Shown here in pieces: positions 42,415-50,601 of a stretch of DNA of 64,000 nt; within the stretch, counting starts at the first letter, position 1; each line of letters starts with the position of its first letter. A program made the position numbers and the translations under genes. Source of the DNA: Spiribacter roseus. Lineage in GTDB: Bacteria > Pseudomonadota > Gammaproteobacteria > Nitrococcales > Nitrococcaceae. Below the pieces are notes generated by a model. It did no database searches and was not told where the DNA came from. It was given only the letters and a program-made list of their open reading frames with translations. The stretch spans positions 310,001 through 374,000 of the forward strand of contig NZ_CP016382.1 of the NCBI RefSeq assembly GCF_002813635.1, given 5' to 3'.

Positions 42415-42843
42415 TCAGCGCTTTTTGGGCTCGAGCATCAGATAGGTCTGCGAGAGCCGGTCGTGCCAGGTCAGGCCCTGTCGGTCGATCATCGCCCACA
42501 AAAAACCGAGCCCGGCCGGCAGCCACGAGAGCATTGCCGTAAAGAATCGGTGCGTGGCGGCGCGGGTCGTCACCCTCGCGCCGTCGGCATCCACCAGTCG
42601 CAGCCGCCAGGCCTTCATCCCCAGCGTGTTGCCGCCCCAGACCCAGAAGCCGATGAAAAACGCGTACGCCACCGCCAACAGGTACACGCGGAACAGCGCG
42701 TCGCCGGCGGGTGCCGCTTCACCCCCCTGAAACGCGATCCACAGAGCGCCTGCACCCATCCACAGCGCGATCAGCAGCATACCGTCGTAGAGAACGGCGG
42801 CCAGGCGGCGCAGGAGGCTGGGACGGTTTTCCGGGGAGATCAT
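42415..42843 (-). CDS. RDD family membrane protein
   Basis: A 142-residue protein with two or three membrane segments. The family signature Arg and Asp residues occur as RRLAAVLYDGMLLIAL near the N-terminus and GGNTLGMKAWRLRLVDADG plus TWHDRLSQTYLM at the end. RDD proteins next to lptFG are common in gammaproteobacteria; the role is unknown. I start at the ATG giving MISPENRP; an upstream in-frame start is less likely. Confidence 0.85.
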   Translation of the reverse strand: MISPENRPSLLRRLAAVLYDGMLLIALWMGAGALWIAFQGGEAAPAGDALFRVYLLAVAYAFFIGFWVWGGNTLGMKAWRLRLVDADGARVTTRAATHRFFTAMLSWLPAGLGFLWAMIDRQGLTWHDRLSQTYLMLEPKKR

Positions 42844-42920
42844 GCTTGAAAGGATACGGGTTTTGCGGGGTGTGGGCGACACTGGTGGGGCTATGAAGGA
42901 CCGTCGTCATTCCGCCACTT

Positions 42921-43472
42921 TCAGTCAATTTCCATGCAGCGCGTCCGTAAGCGATAACGCAGCGCCGTTCCCCCCGAAACATGGCGGTAGCGCACCACCG
43001 CACCAATGCGAAATTCAGATGCGGCAAGGCCCTGCGGGCTCTTCGTATCCGGTAGCGTCAACGTGATGGTTGCGTGATCGGCGGGAAAACGGGTTTGCCC
43101 CTCCCGTGTTCTGATAATGAGCTCAACGAGCCGCAGATAATGCTTATCATGATCGGTCCGGGCGGCCACATCGATGGCGAGCGTCACCCGGCTGCCGGGG
43201 ACGCCTGCAACACGGACAACCGCTACGCCACTGGGCCCCTGATGCACCAGACCACTCCCGGTTGCCGCAACGCCATTGCGGGGATGCAGCTCCAGGAACC
43301 CATGCGCGCCGGGCCGTGTGCGCAGCGTGCCGAGGGATAGGTCGGTTTTCTTTTCTACCTCAACGCCCTCGCATCCCGTCGTGTGCCCGGGCGGGCTTGT
43401 GACTGATAGCAAAAGCCCAAGCGCGATGCCCCACAGGAGAGTCCATGGATGAAGACCGCCCCGGATGATCAT
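42921..43472 (-). CDS. Secreted fimbrial-subunit-like protein (DUF4402-like), last gene of chaperone-usher locus
   Basis: A 183-residue exported protein; signal peptide of about 31 residues (WTLLWGIALGLLLSVTSPPGHTTG). The mature part is beta-rich: LSLGTLRTRPGAHGFLELHPRNG, then VRVAGVPGSRVTLAID, LTLPDTKSPQG and SEFRIGAVVRYRHV, a layout seen in DUF4402-type subunits. One Cys near the N-terminus (TGCEGVEVE) and one five residues from the end (RCMEID) could form a disulfide. It begins inside the usher stop region and is probably a minor, tip or anchor subunit. Family placement is by pattern only. Confidence 0.6.
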   Translation of the reverse strand: MIIRGGLHPWTLLWGIALGLLLSVTSPPGHTTGCEGVEVEKKTDLSLGTLRTRPGAHGFLELHPRNGVAATGSGLVHQGPSGVAVVRVAGVPGSRVTLAIDVAARTDHDKHYLRLVELIIRTREGQTRFPADHATITLTLPDTKSPQGLAASEFRIGAVVRYRHVSGGTALRYRLRTRCMEID

Positions 43473-43475
43473 CCG

Positions 43476-46139
43476 TCATGACTCCGGCGGCGTGGCTGTC
43501 ACGGCGACATCAAAGCGTTGTTGCCCCGCGTCAAGCGCCAGATTGACCGGTGGATTCTGCCAGTCGTCAGGAAGTGCGTCCGCACTGATGCGCACCCGCC
43601 AGCGCCCCGGACTGAGGACATCAAACGAAAAATAGCCATCCGAGAGCGAGCGGGTCGCGGTCTGGTCCTGCCCGTCGACCCGCTCGGCGATCACCTCGAC
43701 GCCCTGGATCGCTGAGCCATCGGCACGTCGCGCATAGCCGGTGACGCTGGCCGCATCGGCGAACGGCATGGTGATCTGGTGGGTGTAGCCGCGGCGTGGC
43801 ACCAGTTCCAGTCGTGGACTGGCCGTGGTGAGGAACGGGTCGACCATCGTGTCGCGATCAAGTGTGATACGCGCCTTGCGATGGGCCGGGAGACCGGTGA
43901 TGACGGCACGGCCCGTATCGTCCGTGCGCACCGGGTGGGGTCGGCCATTGACGCGAAAGCCGATCCCCTTCATCGGCCGGTCGCCGGCGCGCGCGGATAC
44001 CGCTACCGCCCCGGTATGGGCCGCTGACGGTGGCATGAGCATCGGCCCCGTCGCCGGCTCCATGCCGAGCCCAATGGTCATACGAAGGCCCACCGACCAG
44101 TCACCCGACTGATCGACGCCTCCTGAGGCTGTGAGGCGTGCCGGGCCAGGTTCATGGCTAAAGTTAAGCCCAGCAGAGGCGTCGCGATCGCCGGTGCCGT
44201 GGCTGATCTTTGCGGCAAGACGTGGGGCTTCCATGAACGCATAATCCAGCGATCCACTGACGTTGGTATTGGAGAGATCGCCTACCGATCCGCCATTAGC
44301 CGTCAATCGGGTTCTCGCCGAGAGCTTGCCGTGCCGATAGGCGGCGAGAAGTCGATAGCGGGTACGACGCCGATCCGATGCCCTTGTTTGTGAGAGTGTA
44401 TGGGAGAGCCGCAGGGCGGCGATCGAGTGGCGCCAGTCGAGCTCGTACTCTTTCAAATCGCCACCGGAGTCGAATCGGCTGAGGGTGTGTTCAAGGCGCA
44501 GCGACCCAAAATCGAGGTCGCCGATCCCAACCAGATTGCCGCCTAGTCGCAGCCGCAGCCGATCATCAATGAGGCGGCTGCGCGACTCACGCCCAGTGGT
44601 CAGGAACCCATCGGTGTAGTGACGGTAGCCCGCGGACACGCCAAAGCCGGCTAACAGCGGAAACCTTAAGTCGAGTTGTTGGGCACTGGCACCGTCGCGC
44701 TGATGGAGACTCACCAGTTCCGTGCGCACCACTCCGAGGTCAGGTTGCAGGGCAAAACCGCCGGTAGCCCGCTCGACATCGCCGGTTGGTTCACCGTCCA
44801 GCGTCACGGGCGCATCGTCGTAGCGTGGGCTGAACCGCGACCGTGGATCCTTGTCGAGGCTCATCAGTGCGCTTGCGGTCAGTCCATTGGTGATACCGAA
44901 GTCGCCGCGCAGGCGGACATGATCACCGGTTACACTGTTCCCATCATTAAGGTCGATGGTCGAGCGCCCGGTCTGCGTGACGCTGCCGCGGAAATGACGC
45001 TCGCCGGCCCTGAGCTGACTGGCAGGGATCGTGCGCTCAACCTGGCGCTCCTCAACTTCACCGGAGGGTCCGTAGAGCACAACACGTAGACGGTTGGCGC
45101 CATACCCGAGCGGCACATCCTCGAATTCATAGCGCCCATCGGCGTCGATTGTCTGGAAGTCGATCAGCGCCGAGCCGCGATAGAGCTCGGCGTCCCAACC
45201 CGGCAGGGCATCCCCTTCAATGCGGATGACATCGAACAGTTCAGGCCGTGAGCGCGGTGCCGTACTAAAGCGCAGGCCGCGGCCCTGCGCTCCACCCCCC
45301 GCGAGCGGCATTCGCAGGCCACTGACATCGCCAAAGTGCAGACGATAAAGCCCGTGGATGCCGAATGCCCTGCCAGACGGCGATTCACGACCAGCCCGCC
45401 AGCGCAGTGTTTGCAGCCCCCCGCGGTCATTACCGCTGTAGAAGATTTGGTTGGAGACGTAGCCTGCCTCGACATTGAATGAACCGCTCGCGCTAAAAGC
45501 CAGTCGCGAGGTGGACTCATCAGCGCTTGTGCGCATCTGCAGCGTGCCGCGGGGCGTGCCCCAAGCGCGGTAGGGGGCATCGAGCTGCCTGTAGCGATCC
45601 GGTGTTGCCACATCCGGGCGGTCAAAATCACGCCAGCGTTGCTCGCGTAGCACGCGTAGATCCACGGGTAGTGGTCGCTGGCTTCGCAGACGGACGAAAA
45701 GGCCGTTTTCGCCCAGACTTGCATCGATGCCAAACCAGCGCTTGAATCGCTGTGACTGAATGTAGAGCCGGCTATCGCGCTCAACGATCACCCCGGCAGG
45801 CCAGGGCTTACCGGCGTCCTCAACCCGCAATTGGCGGGTGTTGACATCGATCTCGACCGACGGTCGGTTCGCTCCCAGCGATAATGCATAGCGCCCCGGG
45901 CGTGTGGAGCCGACCTGCCCTTCACCGGCTCGGACGATCGGCTCAACCGGCAGCCAAAGCGCCCCGGTGGGCGATTCATAGACATCATGAAAGTCGGGGA
46001 TCGACCGCCCATTGAGCGTCATTTCGACCAGCAAAGACGTCCGCGGTGGAACCGCTGACTCAGCCTCCTCACTCGCCTTTGCCGCTATGGCGGTCACCAC
46101 TCCCAGCAATAGCGCTACAGCGGCAGCGCCCCGGCCCAT
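43476..46139 (-). CDS. Divergent outer-membrane usher (chaperone-usher family)
   Basis: An 887-residue exported protein. After a signal peptide (cleavage near residue 22) an N-terminal domain (about 30-160: EMTLNGRSIPDFHDVYESPTG, LWLPVEPI) resembles usher N-domains. A long beta-barrel of alternating strands runs to about residue 690, with a plug-like insert near 310-370 (WDAELYRGSALIDFQTID). The C-terminal domains carry the usher hallmark ARITLDRDTMVDPFL ... LVPRRGYTHQITMPF and then a carboxypeptidase-regulatory-like fold (SVTGYARRADGSAIQGVEV). Overall it is far from FimD/PapC. The position between a PapD-like chaperone and a subunit gene supports an usher. Confidence 0.75.
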   Translation of the reverse strand: MGRGAAAVALLLGVVTAIAAKASEEAESAVPPRTSLLVEMTLNGRSIPDFHDVYESPTGALWLPVEPIVRAGEGQVGSTRPGRYALSLGANRPSVEIDVNTRQLRVEDAGKPWPAGVIVERDSRLYIQSQRFKRWFGIDASLGENGLFVRLRSQRPLPVDLRVLREQRWRDFDRPDVATPDRYRQLDAPYRAWGTPRGTLQMRTSADESTSRLAFSASGSFNVEAGYVSNQIFYSGNDRGGLQTLRWRAGRESPSGRAFGIHGLYRLHFGDVSGLRMPLAGGGAQGRGLRFSTAPRSRPELFDVIRIEGDALPGWDAELYRGSALIDFQTIDADGRYEFEDVPLGYGANRLRVVLYGPSGEVEERQVERTIPASQLRAGERHFRGSVTQTGRSTIDLNDGNSVTGDHVRLRGDFGITNGLTASALMSLDKDPRSRFSPRYDDAPVTLDGEPTGDVERATGGFALQPDLGVVRTELVSLHQRDGASAQQLDLRFPLLAGFGVSAGYRHYTDGFLTTGRESRSRLIDDRLRLRLGGNLVGIGDLDFGSLRLEHTLSRFDSGGDLKEYELDWRHSIAALRLSHTLSQTRASDRRRTRYRLLAAYRHGKLSARTRLTANGGSVGDLSNTNVSGSLDYAFMEAPRLAAKISHGTGDRDASAGLNFSHEPGPARLTASGGVDQSGDWSVGLRMTIGLGMEPATGPMLMPPSAAHTGAVAVSARAGDRPMKGIGFRVNGRPHPVRTDDTGRAVITGLPAHRKARITLDRDTMVDPFLTTASPRLELVPRRGYTHQITMPFADAASVTGYARRADGSAIQGVEVIAERVDGQDQTATRSLSDGYFSFDVLSPGRWRVRISADALPDDWQNPPVNLALDAGQQRFDVAVTATPPES

Positions 46140-46203
46140 GGCGCGGAGACTCCCGATCTTGAGTCGATGCGATCATAACGGCGCACGCCGGACGAGCCTG
46201 CGC

Positions 46204-47052
46204 TCACTGACACACCGTCTGCTCCGGTTCGCCACGGGCGGGGAATTCGGGCCAGAGCTGCAGACAGACCGCCTCCTCAAGCCGGGCATCATTCTCAAGT
46301 CTGGGTACCCGGATACGCTGCTCGTCGACCGTGTTACCCATGCGCAACCGGCCGCTTGTGTAGCGCTCGCCGCTTGATGCGCCCACCAGCGCCACTGTTC
46401 CGATGTAACTGATGGCCTCGGGCGGTTTGCTGACGGTGAAATAGCCGTGAGTATCCGCATCATCCGGCGATGGCGCGAATGCGCCGACACTCAACGTGGG
46501 CGAATTCACGTTGTGCCGAATGTAGACCGTCACCGGCAACACAGGCTGCAGGGCAACACCCACCGAGAGCCCCTGGTCGCCTTCCTCTGACTCGCCGTCA
46601 CCGAAATTCGGTTCATAGTCCACCTCACGCGACTGAACGGCAAGCTGGACAATGTATTCCCCGGCCGGCAAATCCGCCGGCGGCCGGAAGACCATCCGCA
46701 GCGGCCGGGATCGGTTTGCGGGCACGACGGTGCGCTCGGGTGCCCAGCGCAGGTAGTCCCGGCCGTCATTGACCTCGTCGGAGAGATCATCCGGCACTAC
46801 CTCGAACTCCACTGGCGAGGGGGTCATGCTGAGCAGCTCAACTTGACCCGACCGAGAGCGTTCATCGAGAACGACGACGCTGTCGGTAATCGACACCGAA
46901 ATGGCATGCGCCATCATTGGCGCCAAAAGCCCTATGAACGATAGACGCCGAGCTAAAGAGGAAACCCTGGCGGAAATGCTTTTACATTTGGGCTGATAGC
47001 TGTCGATATTAATTCGCGCACTCACTATCTCGTCCGGGATATCAAGCACCAC
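46204..47052 (-). CDS. PapD-like periplasmic pilus chaperone
   Basis: A 282-residue protein. A hydrophobic export signal (RRLSFIGLLAPMMAHA) sits unusually far from the first start; a GTG ten codons in (base 47025, after GGACGAG) is an alternative. The mature protein starts SVSITDSVVVLDERSRSGQVELLSMT, with TVVPANRSRPLRMVFRPPADLPAGEYIVQLAV, the two-part Ig-like layout of fimbrial chaperones with a basic groove. An acidic loop (GDGESEEGDQ) and a Cys pair near the C-terminus (EAVCLQLW ... TVCQ) are additions. It lies between the major subunit and usher genes. Confidence 0.75.
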   Translation of the reverse strand: MVLDIPDEIVSARINIDSYQPKCKSISARVSSLARRLSFIGLLAPMMAHAISVSITDSVVVLDERSRSGQVELLSMTPSPVEFEVVPDDLSDEVNDGRDYLRWAPERTVVPANRSRPLRMVFRPPADLPAGEYIVQLAVQSREVDYEPNFGDGESEEGDQGLSVGVALQPVLPVTVYIRHNVNSPTLSVGAFAPSPDDADTHGYFTVSKPPEAISYIGTVALVGASSGERYTSGRLRMGNTVDEQRIRVPRLENDARLEEAVCLQLWPEFPARGEPEQTVCQ

Positions 47053-47145
47053 TTACTCACTGACGCCGGCCTCTTGTCGAGCTATCGCCGTGGCCCCGAC
47101 GCTTCGCGTTATTCTTAACCTATACCGTAATACCAATTGGACATG

Positions 47146-47703
47146 TCATGGATCGTCGTTCACCTCAACTGTCAGGGACGTCTCATAATCTTGGAAGTCG
47201 CCGGAACTAAGATCATTAGATATCTCTAGTTCCCCACCAATATGCACAGACCCCTCACCGGAACCATCAAGTTCAAACTTTTCTCCCTCCTTGCTATCCT
47301 CTGGTGCAACGGAGAGCGGACTTTCTCCTTCTTTTAACTTGACTTCGTCAGGTAGGGCGATCTTAATCTTTTGTCCGTCGTCACCACCGCTTATTGTGCA
47401 CTTACCCGATTGCGAATCTCCGGCGAGGGATACATTCTCACTACCATCCACCGTCTCGGCTTTCGCATCCTCGCCAGCCTCAATTTGAACGACATCAACG
47501 GACCCACGGTCTCCCACCGGCACAATCAATTCTCCAAAGTTCAGCGCCCTATTGCACTCGATGGTCATTGCAGCCGTGAGCGTCGCTTTCACATCCAAGT
47601 CGGCTCTAGGCGTATCCGCCCATGCATTGGATGAAGCCAGTACGAATGCAGCAGCACTCCCTGCGATGATAAGGCGGCGTTGTTTCATTTTGGTCCATTC
47701 CAT
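47146..47703 (-). CDS. Major fimbrial-like subunit (DUF4402-like, acidic)
   Basis: A 185-residue secreted protein; signal peptide MKQRRLIIAGSAAAFVLASSNAWA within it. The mature part is very acidic and beta-rich: LDVKATLTAAMTIECNRALNFGELIVP, then a second Cys in SGKCTISGG (likely disulfide) and a Gly/Asp-rich C-terminal half ending LTVEVNDDP, which could be a donor strand. This fits DUF4402-type surface subunits. GAGGA precedes a pair of ATGs; I take the second. Its base composition is clearly more AT-rich than the surrounding genes, suggesting transfer. Confidence 0.7.
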   Translation of the reverse strand: MEWTKMKQRRLIIAGSAAAFVLASSNAWADTPRADLDVKATLTAAMTIECNRALNFGELIVPVGDRGSVDVVQIEAGEDAKAETVDGSENVSLAGDSQSGKCTISGGDDGQKIKIALPDEVKLKEGESPLSVAPEDSKEGEKFELDGSGEGSVHIGGELEISNDLSSGDFQDYETSLTVEVNDDP

Positions 47704-47791
47704 CATGATTTCCTCAAACCTTTGGGCAGGCACTCTTTACCCAGCTATTACGCCATTTCGGTTGCAGGATGCAGGGACAATGCCGCTGAAA

Positions 47792-47807
47792 CCTTACAAC
47801 CCCTTAC
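47792..47807. promoter_or_regulatory. Tandem CCTTAC repeats between fimbrial operon and two-component system
   Basis: CCTTAC-AACC-CCTTAC, a ten-base direct repeat of the kind bound by OmpR-family dimers. It lies 89 bases before the subunit start, upstream of a -10-like TAATAG (47745-47750, minus strand) with no good -35, as for an activated promoter. A related CTTTAC (47735-47740) and inverted GTAAAG (47838-47843) occur in the same region. Confidence 0.4.
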
Positions 47808-47904
47808 GGTCGCAGAGGATGTAGGCTGATATGCCGTGTAAAGAGGGACTGGGCGCCTGCGCGCATGGCCAGGGCGCCAGGAGCGGTGGATAGCGTGAAA
47901 CGGC

Positions 47905-49836
47905 ATGACAGCCGAAAGCCGAAAAAACGACGTTAGCGCGGGGGTGATCGCGCCATTCCGTCGCCTCAACGGCGTCCTTATCGAGGTCGCGCTGGTGCTC
48001 GCGATCATGCTGACGCCGGCGGCGGCGCTCGAGGGTAATCCAGCCATCGAGCAGGCGGAATACCTCATCACCGAAGCGCCCTCGACACCCGGGGAGCAGG
48101 CGAGGTGGCGGCCCTACCATATTGGTCAGACACTCGGGTTTGTCGAGGGCTCTGTCTGGATGAAGCTGCGGTTTGCGCCGCCCGAAGCAATGCCGGATAA
48201 CCCCTGGCTGCTCATCCGGCCGGTTTATCTCGATCACATCGAGGTCTATCGCGGCGGGGCCAGTCCTACGCGGCGCTTCGTAGCCGGTGACCGTCAGCCG
48301 ACGGCTGGAGGAATCGTGCCAGACACCTACGCGATGGCGCTGGTGCGTGCGGACATCGAGGAAGGCCTGCTGATCCGTTTCGAATCTCGCAATCTCATGC
48401 AGCCTTACCTTAAAGTGCGTTCGCAGCAGGCGCTACAAGAGGTAGGAGCGGGGTTTTATTCACTCGTCAGCGTTGCGATCGCTGCCACATTGTTCTATCT
48501 CCTCTGGGCTGCTACTTCGATGATCGCCTCGCCTACACCGCTGGTGGCGGCGTTCATTGCACGGCTATCGCTCTATCTGCTGACCCTTTTCATTCATACC
48601 GGGCTCACACGGCCCTTGTTTGGCGAAGGGGCAATCCTCACGCAGGACCTCACCCATAACGCCACCGCGCTTGCTTATATCACGGTGGCCCAGATCTTTG
48701 ATTTCATGCTGCTCCGTGAGATCGGCGGGCGATGGGCGACACGGCTTTTTGCTGGTGTGATCGCAGTGAGTGCGCTCTCGAAACTGCTTGCCTTCGGGCT
48801 TGGCGATGTCTCGCTGGCGCTGCAGATCAATAACAGTTCAGCACTGGCGACGTTGCTGCTCGCGCTGGTGCTGATGCCCTTTTGTCGGCCGTCGGGCACA
48901 GCGGTCTATGTCATCAACCGCGCCACGTTGTCGCTCTATTTCCTACTCCAGGCACTACCCCTGGGGCTGCTGTTCGCCGGCACGCTCATCGGGAGTGCCT
49001 GGTTTGCCCGACTCCTGGAGTTCTCTTTCATTAACTATGCCGTTCTGCCGGGCGCCTACATTGCCTGGATTCTTTTTCGCCGCCAGCAAATGATCATCCG
49101 GCAACGAAATACCCTCGCCGAACGCGCCCGGCTACTGCAGGCGCGTTCAAACGAGCAGAGCCTTCGGCGCAAGGAAATGGGGGAGCTCCTCGAGATGCTC
49201 TCCCATGAGGTCCGCACTCCCTTGGCAACGCTGCGCTTCGCCCACCACATGGATGCCCTCGATAACGCAACCGTGAGACGCGCCACGCAGGCGATCGATC
49301 ATGCGCTGCGCCAGGCGGATCGGGTCGAAGAACTCGAGCGGGGGCGGTTGCAGGTGCGCCCGCAACCGCTTGAGCTTGGTACGCTTATTGATGCGCTCGC
49401 CGAGGAGCGCGGCGTTGATCTCAAGCACCAAGGTGCGCCCGCCGTCGTTCAGGCCGATCCTGAGCTGCTCCGCGTTGTGCTCTCGAACCTCATAAGCAAT
49501 GCCGGAAAGTATGGACTGCCGCCGCATCCAGTAGTCGTGTCGATCGAGCAGAGCGCCGAGGTGGTGACCCTGCGCCTCTCCAATCGCGTTGAACCCGGAA
49601 CGGAACCGGACTCGAGCAGGGTGTTTGAGAAATACTACCGGGCGGAGAATGTAAGCGGGCGATCCGGGACGGGGCTCGGCCTTTATATCGTCCGACAGCT
49701 CAGCGAGCGCATGAGTATTGAAGTAGAGCTCATCTCAGGCAACGGATGTGTCACTGTCATCCTGACCTTGCCATCACCGGCAAGCGAGAGAACCGAGGAA
49801 CCCGAGGCAGGCCATGACCACCATCGCACTGGTTGA
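47905..49836 (+). CDS. Sensor histidine kinase with 7TMR-DISM sensor
   Basis: A 643-residue membrane kinase. An N-terminal membrane segment (residues 24-42) leads to a periplasmic 7TMR-DISMED2-like beta domain (about 45-175: GFVEGSVWMKLRFAPPE, NPWLLIRPVYLDHIEVY). Seven membrane segments follow (about 180-395, 7TMR-DISM). After a short coiled coil comes the H-box LSHEVRTPLATLRF with phospho-acceptor His434, then an ATPase domain (NLISNAGKYG, GRSGTGLGLYIVRQL). It overlaps the response-regulator gene by 23 bases and faces the fimbrial operon, which it probably controls. Confidence 0.88.
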   Translation: MTAESRKNDVSAGVIAPFRRLNGVLIEVALVLAIMLTPAAALEGNPAIEQAEYLITEAPSTPGEQARWRPYHIGQTLGFVEGSVWMKLRFAPPEAMPDNPWLLIRPVYLDHIEVYRGGASPTRRFVAGDRQPTAGGIVPDTYAMALVRADIEEGLLIRFESRNLMQPYLKVRSQQALQEVGAGFYSLVSVAIAATLFYLLWAATSMIASPTPLVAAFIARLSLYLLTLFIHTGLTRPLFGEGAILTQDLTHNATALAYITVAQIFDFMLLREIGGRWATRLFAGVIAVSALSKLLAFGLGDVSLALQINNSSALATLLLALVLMPFCRPSGTAVYVINRATLSLYFLLQALPLGLLFAGTLIGSAWFARLLEFSFINYAVLPGAYIAWILFRRQQMIIRQRNTLAERARLLQARSNEQSLRRKEMGELLEMLSHEVRTPLATLRFAHHMDALDNATVRRATQAIDHALRQADRVEELERGRLQVRPQPLELGTLIDALAEERGVDLKHQGAPAVVQADPELLRVVLSNLISNAGKYGLPPHPVVVSIEQSAEVVTLRLSNRVEPGTEPDSSRVFEKYYRAENVSGRSGTGLGLYIVRQLSERMSIEVELISGNGCVTVILTLPSPASERTEEPEAGHDHHRTG

Positions 49837-50488
49837 AGATAACGCCGAACTTCAGGAAATGACCGTCCGCTTTCTGGGCCACCACGGCTATCAGGTTGCG
49901 GGAGTCGCAACCGCCGAGGAACTCGCCGAACTCTCTGAGACCCCGGATTTCTATTTGATCGATTTGAATCTCCCGACCATCAGCGGCTATGAGCTCATTG
50001 CGCGGATCCGCCAGACGGCGCCAAACGTAGGGATCATCGTGACCTCGGCGCGCGAGCGCACTGAGGACATCACCCGGGGCTACGAGATCGGCGCAGACGT
50101 CTATCTGACCAAACCAATCGACCCCGATCTGCTGCTGGCTGCCGTGAAACGACTCGAAAAACGGACACTGCACTCACCGGAGCGCCCTGATGCCGCCATT
50201 GTCTACCTGTCCACGCGAATCCTCATGCGCAACAGTGAGGAGGTCCGGTTGTCCGAAGCCGAATGCCGTCTCCTGTACCAGCTCAGCCTGGCCGGCACCG
50301 ATGGGCTCGAGCGATGGGAAGTCATGGAACTGCTCGGCATGGACCTGGACCATGATGCCCAGAATACACTTGAGGTCCGCATCACCCGGCTTCGTGGCAA
50401 GCTTCGCGCGGTCGGCCTGCGCGGCGAGGCCCTCGGGGCGGTCCGCAGTCACGGGTATCGGTTAACTGCGAATCTTGAGTTTCTGTAG
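49814..50488 (+). CDS. OmpR-family response regulator
   Basis: A 224-residue regulator. Receiver domain: acidic pair ALVEDNAELQ, phospho-acceptor Asp50 (FYLIDLNLP), Thr/Ser at IIVTSARE and Lys in YLTKPIDPD. A winged-helix output domain occupies the C-terminal 100 residues (VRLSEAECRLLYQLS, LEVRITRLRGKLRAVG, AVRSHGYRLT). It forms a pair with the preceding 7TMR-DISM kinase. The likely target is the divergent chaperone-usher operon; this is inference from position. Confidence 0.88.
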   Translation: MTTIALVEDNAELQEMTVRFLGHHGYQVAGVATAEELAELSETPDFYLIDLNLPTISGYELIARIRQTAPNVGIIVTSARERTEDITRGYEIGADVYLTKPIDPDLLLAAVKRLEKRTLHSPERPDAAIVYLSTRILMRNSEEVRLSEAECRLLYQLSLAGTDGLERWEVMELLGMDLDHDAQNTLEVRITRLRGKLRAVGLRGEALGAVRSHGYRLTANLEFL

Positions 50489-50526
50489 AGAGATTCTGGC
50501 GACGGGGCTACGAGCACTTGATTGAG

Positions 50527-50601
50527 TGGTGCTCCCACGGGGATTTGAACCCCGGTTTCCGCCTTGAGAGGGCGGCGTCCTTACCGCTAGACGATGGGAG
50601 C
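50527..50601 (-). tRNA. tRNA-Glu (anticodon CUC), CCA encoded
   Basis: Read on the minus strand, the 75 bases fold as a tRNA: acceptor GCTCCCA/TGGGAGC, discriminator A and encoded CCA. The D-arm region is CGTCTAGCGGTAAGGACG. The anticodon stem CCGCC/GGCGG carries loop CTCTCAA (anticodon CTC, Glu), and the T-arm is CCGGGGTTCAAATCCCCG. The GTCTAG element and GGACGCCGCC match bacterial tRNA-Glu. Its 3' end points toward the accessory locus. Confidence 0.95.

Follow-up and report, generated by a model that had tools for sequence, protein, structure and literature searches.

Six adjoining genes in the 64,000-nucleotide stretch of Spiribacter roseus DNA analysed here (the window) lie together on one genomic island at a tRNA gene. 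Four minus-strand genes, for a DUF4402 subunit (su1), a PapD-type chaperone, an usher-like barrel protein and a second subunit-like protein (su2), stand opposite a plus-strand pair for a histidine kinase with a 7TMR-DISM sensor and an OmpR-type response regulator. In our reading, to which we give a probability of roughly 0.7, the locus encodes a chaperone-usher fibre of an unrecognised usher branch that has been inherited as one island with a local two-component switch.

Gene content and predicted folds

All six open reading frames (ORFs) were confirmed, and the gene order is RDD-family gene (read by eye), su2, usher, chaperone, su1, kinase, regulator and tRNA-Glu(CTC). The source genome (G000, 1.93 Mb) is a single contig; other G and L numbers denote the genomes and loci compared with it. 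The features are as follows.

42839-50526, no strand: genomic island with all six genes, at the 3' end of tRNA-Glu(CTC)
42921-43472, minus: su2, second DUF4402-like subunit, putative tip; homologues in G015 and Pseudohaliea rubra
43476-46139, minus: usher, with an N-terminal part, a predicted 24-strand barrel with plug (about 304-371) and two C-terminal beta domains
46204-47052, minus: predicted PapD-type periplasmic chaperone (AlphaFold2 model and Foldseek); start codon uncertain
47146-47733, minus: su1, acidic DUF4402 subunit with N-terminal extension, putative rod
47793-47807, plus: direct repeat CTTAC-N5-CTTAC between the two divergent operons, a candidate box for the regulator
47905-49836, plus: histidine kinase with 7TMR-DISMED2 sensor (Pfam); 76% identity to the G020 copy
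49814-50488, plus: OmpR-type response regulator (Pfam Response_reg and Trans_reg_C); 89% identity in G020
50527-50601, minus: tRNA-Glu (CTC), the island border (ARAGORN)

For su1, an ATG at 47706 behind GAGGAAATC reads better than the listed ORF start. Measured from the listed start, the gap to the kinase gene is 171 bp; measured from this ATG it is 198 bp, in keeping with the preliminary description of this locus, which had the two operons facing each other across about 200 bases.

Sequence libraries alone recognise DUF4402 (clearly in su1, weakly in su2), a C-terminal CarboxypepD_reg domain and the two-component domains. CarboxypepD_reg is the only Pfam family over its cut-off in the usher; the Pfam usher model PF00577 reaches 10.5 bits there against a cut-off of 27.1 (E 0.26). 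PF00577 is absent from the whole of G000, a result to be read in the light of the same model missing the window usher, and it is weak in the usher's relatives (3/15 at E ≤ 0.1, the best at 6.9e-4; 1/34 at E ≤ 0.01). Since this model rarely reaches the family, surveys based on PF00577 would mostly miss it. NCBIfam usher models matched none of the 34 family members scanned, and phmmer searches with the window usher and chaperone gave no match among PDB sequences. A profile of 15 ushers run against the PDB returned prealbumin-like C-terminal domains and weak unrelated chains; these were set aside, and the usher is placed by its predicted fold alone.

The AlphaFold2 model of the usher, built on a 59-sequence alignment, has a mean predicted local distance difference test (pLDDT) score of 87.8. 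Its strand list, counted by hand, gives six barrel strands (197-292), a plug-like domain (about 304-371, with the assignment of 362-371 to the plug a matter of judgement), eighteen further strands (381-694) and two beta domains. With Foldseek, ranks 1-18 are all FimD or PapC (best FimD E 1.9e-30). The VIA search likewise places FimD and PapC in all 15 top rows, with Z of 17.5-20.3; the next row is a porin with Z of 14.4. That search superposes 379 residues on the FimD translocation domain at 5.2 Å (Z 19.6) and 473 residues on a PapC chain at 4.7 Å (Z 19.1).

The window chaperone matched no Pfam family, and PapD_N is found in 19 of its 45 aligned relatives. Two beta domains are seen in its model (pLDDT 83.8), and pilus chaperones or their complexes fill all 50 listed Foldseek rows (best E 9.1e-10). 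Alternating hydrophobic residues precede the G1 strand (162, 164, 166 and 168), the last three of which are mostly V, I or L across the 45 rows, and R179 is kept as arginine in 44 of the 45. On this model the protein is a two-domain chaperone of the PapD type. A profile of the chaperones run against PDB sequences has CfaA-type chaperones as its first two matches, which are not significant (E 0.037 and 0.041). VIA ranks CEP192 and ciliary PapD-like domains with the chaperones, CEP192 above them; only the first immunoglobulin (Ig)-like domain is covered, and we do not count them as relatives.

Several details weigh against these fold assignments. Superpositions over the whole usher chain are loose (root-mean-square deviation 9-27 Å in most rows, TM about 0.44), and residues 33-155, the N-terminal domain, are structured in the model and hardly covered by the fold matches. 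Those of the chaperone are loose too (TM about 0.34-0.42); fn3_5 is matched in 30/45 chaperone relatives, that is, in more than PapD_N; and the first anchor arginine (R in 42/45) is valine in the window and P. rubra chaperones. As judged from the alignment, valine at this near-invariant position is a trait of the window/P. rubra subfamily. The two near-invariant arginine positions may be the equivalents of PapD R8 and K112.

Going by some database names, the barrel would be no usher but a porin or export channel of the outer membrane, unrelated to ushers and fitted with prealbumin-like domains; the sequence libraries do mostly report CarboxypepD_reg, SdrD_B and SpaA for the family. We consider this highly improbable: the model has a predicted plug and 24 strands, ushers come out clearly ahead of other barrels in the fold searches, a PapD-type chaperone gene lies next to the usher gene in 73 of 80 related loci, and the CarboxypepD_reg part is the very region that aligns with usher C-terminal domains. 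The last point also accounts for the name 'carboxypeptidase regulatory-like' in public records. Seven plasmid records hold usher relatives (24-34% identity), of which four are named carboxypeptidase regulatory-like, one SdrD B-like and one hypothetical, and one has no name; phage sources gave no match. We thus regard the predicted usher and chaperone folds as well supported and the usher-like protein, by its predicted fold, as a true usher; the barrel with plug and the two-domain chaperone bear out the chaperone-usher fibre locus first proposed for this DNA. Some ushers of the family carry a SPOR domain (2/15 and 4/34 scanned), C-terminal where read by eye (L059, L061, L067, L088), and the family may therefore include a peptidoglycan-binding usher.

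The preliminary description had an acidic DUF4402-like subunit and a second subunit-like protein. Su1 agrees fully, being acidic (D+E 20% versus K+R 9%) and matching DUF4402 at 39.3 bits, over the cut-off of 25.2. Su2, a single domain of 183 aa, fits less closely: its DUF4402 match lies below the cut-off (22.5 bits, E 1.9e-4), and it is slightly basic (D+E 8% versus K+R 12%). On sequence reading, some 17 residues separate the likely signal cleavage site of su1 from the DUF4402 core, and su2 starts almost at the core. Because mature su2 seems to begin at the first core strand, without an N-terminal extension, we infer that it is the tip subunit and su1 the rod subunit. A crude script for the distance from signal to motif gives 34 for window su1. 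Among 71 ORFs near ushers the distance is 25-39 in 41, 10-19 in 12 and elsewhere in 18, the last class consisting partly of unrelated ORFs or misread motifs (e.g., P. rubra su2 at 62). One extended and one unextended subunit adjoin in several Pseudoalteromonas loci and a Vibrio locus. Two observations count against this division of roles: window su2 received no value from the script, and the two subunits of the G017 locus, like those of the G019 locus, both have distances in the extended range (32-33), which means that a rod/tip split is not general.

The working model is then as follows. The subunits would enter the periplasm, where the PapD-type chaperone would complete their Ig-like fold by donating a strand. 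The usher would take up chaperone-subunit pairs, open its plug and polymerise the subunits by donor-strand exchange, with su2 as the terminal subunit and su1 forming the rod. The 7TMR-DISM kinase may sense something outside the cell, possibly the carbohydrate or small ligand suggested in the preliminary description, and its OmpR-type partner would act on the shared divergent promoter.

Relatives of the usher and known pilus systems

Chaperone-usher pili are divided into three groups and six clades in the available text of PMC9452303. In profile-profile comparisons the window usher family scores 185.5 with the archaic group, 139.0 with the alternative group and 97.1 with the classical group; the known groups score 431.6 (classical-archaic), 226.4 (archaic-alternative) and 152.5 (classical-alternative) among themselves. 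A quick tree of 41 ushers over 722 columns was built from 6 classical (all Escherichia coli), 9 archaic and 10 alternative sequences and 16 of the 59 members of the window family. The archaic rows are PF00577 matches, with SCPU-like neighbours by eye in seven of the nine, and the alternative rows are PF16967 matches plus EcpC. Each of the four groups forms one side of a branch, with approximate likelihood ratio (SH-aLRT) support of 100 for the window family (stem 1.28 changes per column), 100 for the classical, 99 for the alternative and 93 for the archaic group. In this tree the window usher falls outside all three sampled groups, in line with the earlier judgement that it is not close to a classical Fim, Pap, CS1 or archaic CupE/Csu protein; its exact position is unsure because the branches are long and composition is uneven.

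The family could instead be a fast-evolving offshoot of the archaic (sigma) group and no separate fourth branch. That group is the nearest by profile, its profile finds 24 of the 59 family members at E < 1e-3, and the order subunit-chaperone-usher-last subunit is that of sigma clusters such as Csu. In the quick tree, however, the 16 members keep to their own side of a fully supported branch with a long stem, and the archaic group joins the classical one. The subunits are DUF4402 here, as against SCPU-like in most of the archaic loci. We therefore think an archaic offshoot improbable, and the reading as a branch of its own is retained below.

The archaic Csu and CupE systems have a PapD-type chaperone and the nearest usher profile in common with the window family, which differs in having its own usher clade, DUF4402 subunits and a single-domain last subunit, and in PF00577 not being called in the window usher. 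The alternative pili (alpha, class 5; CFA/I and EcpA-E; class 5 chaperones after the available text of PMC4133393) are approached through the non-significant CfaA-type chaperone matches, but the window usher lies in a separate clade. PF16967 has no match in the window usher or in G000 and one among 15 usher relatives (E 0.086), and G062 and G324 each carry a PF16967 usher plus a separate usher of the window family. The E. coli ushers and their chaperones have the same predicted folds, but a profile of six E. coli ushers finds none of the 59 members at E ≤ 10. The yad/htrE fimbrial cluster of E. coli K-12 (L250, 150000-159000) also stands beside folK-pcnB, as the window fibre does, which is probably a coincidence, the ushers being of different groups.

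Of 446 stretches in the genome collection that matched the single pattern used, tblastn confirmed 427, and the counts given here refer to the best 80 of these. They come mostly from Sphingomonadales and Pseudoalteromonas. The chaperone gene is directly upstream of the usher gene in the 73 loci mentioned above, and 73/80 also have a DUF4402-like gene on the same strand within 5 kb of the usher. The chaperone exceptions comprise contig ends (L066, L069, L106), an opposite-strand gene (L068, L079), a downstream gene (L070) and a split usher ORF (L094). Seven of the 80 had no usher among non-overlapping ORFs and were recovered once all ORFs were used. The chaperone profile behind the count includes 44 chaperones taken from these very loci; a previous profile, built without those 44, already gave 59 matches among non-overlapping ORFs. 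The alignments hold 59 ushers and 45 chaperones, chosen from 71 and 57 listed, plus the window and L066. Among 14 genomes of the genus, all six DUF4402 matches (E ≤ 0.001; three genomes) flank an usher of the window family. The quartet su1-chaperone-usher-su2 is conserved.

At order level the usher profile matches 11/54 genomes at E ≤ 0.001, the source genome and partial matches included. In a class-level sample it matches 24/369 at that threshold, and in 10/369 (the source genome not counted) it covers more than half the profile at E below 1e-60, the others being C-terminal domains or short stretches. PF00577 occurs in 8/143 and PF16967 over its cut-off in 10/274 gammaproteobacterial genomes. 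These samples and search methods differ, and on them the frequency of the family is of the same order as that of PF00577 and PF16967 ushers. Our searches of the open-access literature found no paper on DUF4402 or on chaperone-usher systems in Spiribacter, and none joining chaperone-usher systems with 7TMR-DISM, or usher fimbriae with carboxypeptidase regulatory-like proteins and a chaperone. A paper on c-di-GMP in Leptospira came up for 7TMR-DISM together with fimbriae, and a review for 7TMR-DISM histidine kinases together with adhesins.

Smaller observations on these loci are that the G109 usher gene (L062, 6866-10040) is broken into several frames and that of its close relative G245 (L054) is open, and that Pseudoalteromonas loci including L067 have lipoprotein-like genes of about 200-230 aa directly downstream of the usher.

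The island, its tRNA site and a scar in a relative

In G009 the site is empty. Its alignment with the window breaks off at 42838 and resumes at 50527, the base with which the tRNA 3' end begins; between these alignment ends lie 7688 bases in the window and 22 in G009. The flanks have a GC content of 0.69 and 0.68, the fibre genes 0.51-0.635, and the kinase and regulator genes 0.60-0.61. A search of the window for a further exact copy of the tRNA end (10-30 bases) found none, and the island has no integrase, its large ORFs being the six genes.

Matches to lptG and pcnB lie on one contig in 10 of the 14 genus genomes (G000 included) and are split over contigs in four. The interval between the two genes measures 0.63-0.71 kb in G009, G010, G014 and G021, 1.2-1.3 kb in two genomes, 2.4 kb in one, 6.3 kb in G020, 8.3 kb in G000 and 8.7 kb in G012. 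In the G012 insert, phage-like genes (integrase- and terminase-like by eye) occur together with a 44-bp repeat of the tRNA 3' end. Across the genus, the lptG-pcnB interval at tRNA-Glu(CTC), noted at window 42839-50526 and at L152, is an integration hotspot. Unrelated accessory genes occupy this site in G011.

The sister genome G020 has the orthologous pair in inverted orientation at the same site, with a DUF3015 gene and an Lnb_N/DUF7840 gene as neighbours. Upstream of its kinase gene, joined to the promoter block of the pair, is a 112-bp stretch that is 74% identical to su2 (E 3e-15). Identities between G000 and G020 are 125/180 for the sensor, 194/225 for the 7TM part, 169/235 for the kinase part and 199/224 for the regulator; for the flanking RDD and LptG proteins they are 123/143 and 333/358. 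The simplest reading of these sequences is that the common ancestor of G000 and G020 had the fibre beside the sensor and that G020 then lost the fibre by deletion. The single low-GC island at the tRNA end, together with the su2 remnant beside the G020 pair, thus points to joint inheritance of fibre and sensor. Island and scar together offer a natural experiment, on a small scale, on whether sensor and surface fibre travel as a unit.

That an island should carry a chaperone-usher cluster together with two-component genes of its own has a precedent. According to the available text of PMC3842833, Pseudomonas aeruginosa cupD on PAPI-1 is such a cluster, probably acquired with the PvrSR/RcsCB two-component genes. 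The mobile island and the two-component genes are common to both loci, but cupD is served by a network of two sensors (RcsC and PvrS) and regulators, and the window has one DISM kinase and one OmpR-type regulator.

The sensor pair and its surroundings

The Pfam matches of the kinase are all over cut-off (7TMR-DISMED2 28.5, HisKA 27.1 and HATPase_c 57.2 bits); the 7TM domain PF07695 was not reported in the Pfam scan of this protein. Its N-terminal 410 residues have matches in 4 of the 54 genomes of the order, the source genome included, with 79% identity in G020 and 25-27% in G016 and G019.

The 15-bp repeat CTTACAACCCCTTAC at 47793-47807 is the sole exact CTTAC-N5-CTTAC in G000, and likewise in G020, and it stands at the same place upstream of the kinase gene in both. 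It lies inside a 46-bp conserved block in which the two genomes agree at 40/46 positions. Direct repeats of this form, five bases long with a spacing of ten, fit an OmpR-type regulator. The repeat is a lead only, because the reversed pattern, used as a control, has 2 and 1 occurrences.

Other results speak against a fibre with a dedicated switch. CTTAC boxes are no more numerous than in the control or by chance, and no sigma-70-like promoter was found in 47600-48000. The pair may have other targets, because G020 keeps it without the fibre genes. When 80 + 19 related loci were surveyed with queries for kinases and regulators (ORFs of at least 80 aa; the G015 contig in both sets; several contigs short), no DISM kinase was found within the available flanking DNA, although positive controls were recovered. 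The survey otherwise gave an unrelated kinase/regulator pair several genes away in L008 and LuxR-type regulators in L049 and L051; P. rubra has a partial hybrid kinase-regulator several kb from its quartet. We thus reject linkage of the six genes as a general rule. The quartet does recur elsewhere, but the six genes together do not in the loci surveyed, and 'its own' two-component system holds in the weaker sense of one island and the G020 scar: in one lineage the sensor was inherited alongside the fibre, but it is not a partner of such fibres in general.

Alternatively, the fibre might be real and the pair an unrelated neighbour in the tRNA hotspot that regulates something else. The other quartets examined do not adjoin a DISM kinase, the G020 pair persists on its own, and DISM pairs beside lptG in G018 and G019 adjoin two-partner-secretion genes instead. 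Fibre and pair nevertheless have low GC in common and entered by a single insertion at the tRNA end, the G020 scar has them already adjacent in the common ancestor, and the two transcription units diverge across about 200 bp. We hold an unrelated neighbour to be unlikely, if far from negligible, and keep to a fibre inherited with a local switch.

PF07696, the DISM sensor family, was found at 26 places in 23 family genomes, and 12 of the 14 genus genomes match. The surroundings were read for part of the 26, nine further places of a conserved kind being left out. In the genus, DISM pairs adjoin the window fibre (G000), the fibre remnant (G020), an autotransporter beta-domain (G016), the cut end of a protein (G012) with what we take to be a LEPR-XLL-like motif and, in G013, the fibre-like set described at the end of this section. 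Next to lptG, a DISM kinase and regulator lie beside TpsB-type genes in G019 (L151, 8227-15383; by Pfam) and G018 (L158; by resemblance); L151 also has haemagglutinin-type genes, and both contigs stop short of the tRNA. Several places speak against a wider pattern: a permease is the neighbour of one G016 pair, a different kind of kinase is found amid housekeeping genes (Dps, for example) in G009, G010, G012 and G015, and no surface gene adjoins the second DISM kinase that G000 carries close to a parC-like gene. The G012 kinase of this other kind is two genes from TpsB and haemagglutinin-type genes. A tendency of the genus DISM pairs to adjoin surface cargo genes is weakly supported. The available text of the Spiribacter genome paper (PMC3832224) gives only two two-component systems, as against the DISM kinases seen here in most genus genomes, and 'fimbri', 'pili' and 'usher' do not occur in it.

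A broader proposal, to which we would give a little less than an even chance, is that the family is a fourth major chaperone-usher branch with DUF4402 subunits, widespread in Gammaproteobacteria and Sphingomonadales under 'carboxypeptidase regulatory-like' names. Within the genus, the fibre would be one of several surface cargoes (with two-partner secretion, an autotransporter and other surface proteins) beside 7TMR-DISM pairs, and two of these kinds of cargo would adjoin lptG at the tRNA-Glu hotspot. Sensor and surface genes would then form a plug-in module able to lose or change its cargo. An additional usher branch would give many marine and halophilic bacteria a fibre type made of DUF4402 subunits.

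A four-gene fibre-like set in G013 (L009, 6416-14100) encodes proteins of 186 and 275 aa, a barrel-like protein of 907 aa and a glycine-rich one of 310 aa. Its kinase matches 7TMR-DISM_7TM at E 0.058 only, and its regulator is LuxR-like. The 907-aa barrel has an Ig-like N-terminus, and what it has in common with the window usher is mainly the C-terminal CarboxypepD_reg region.

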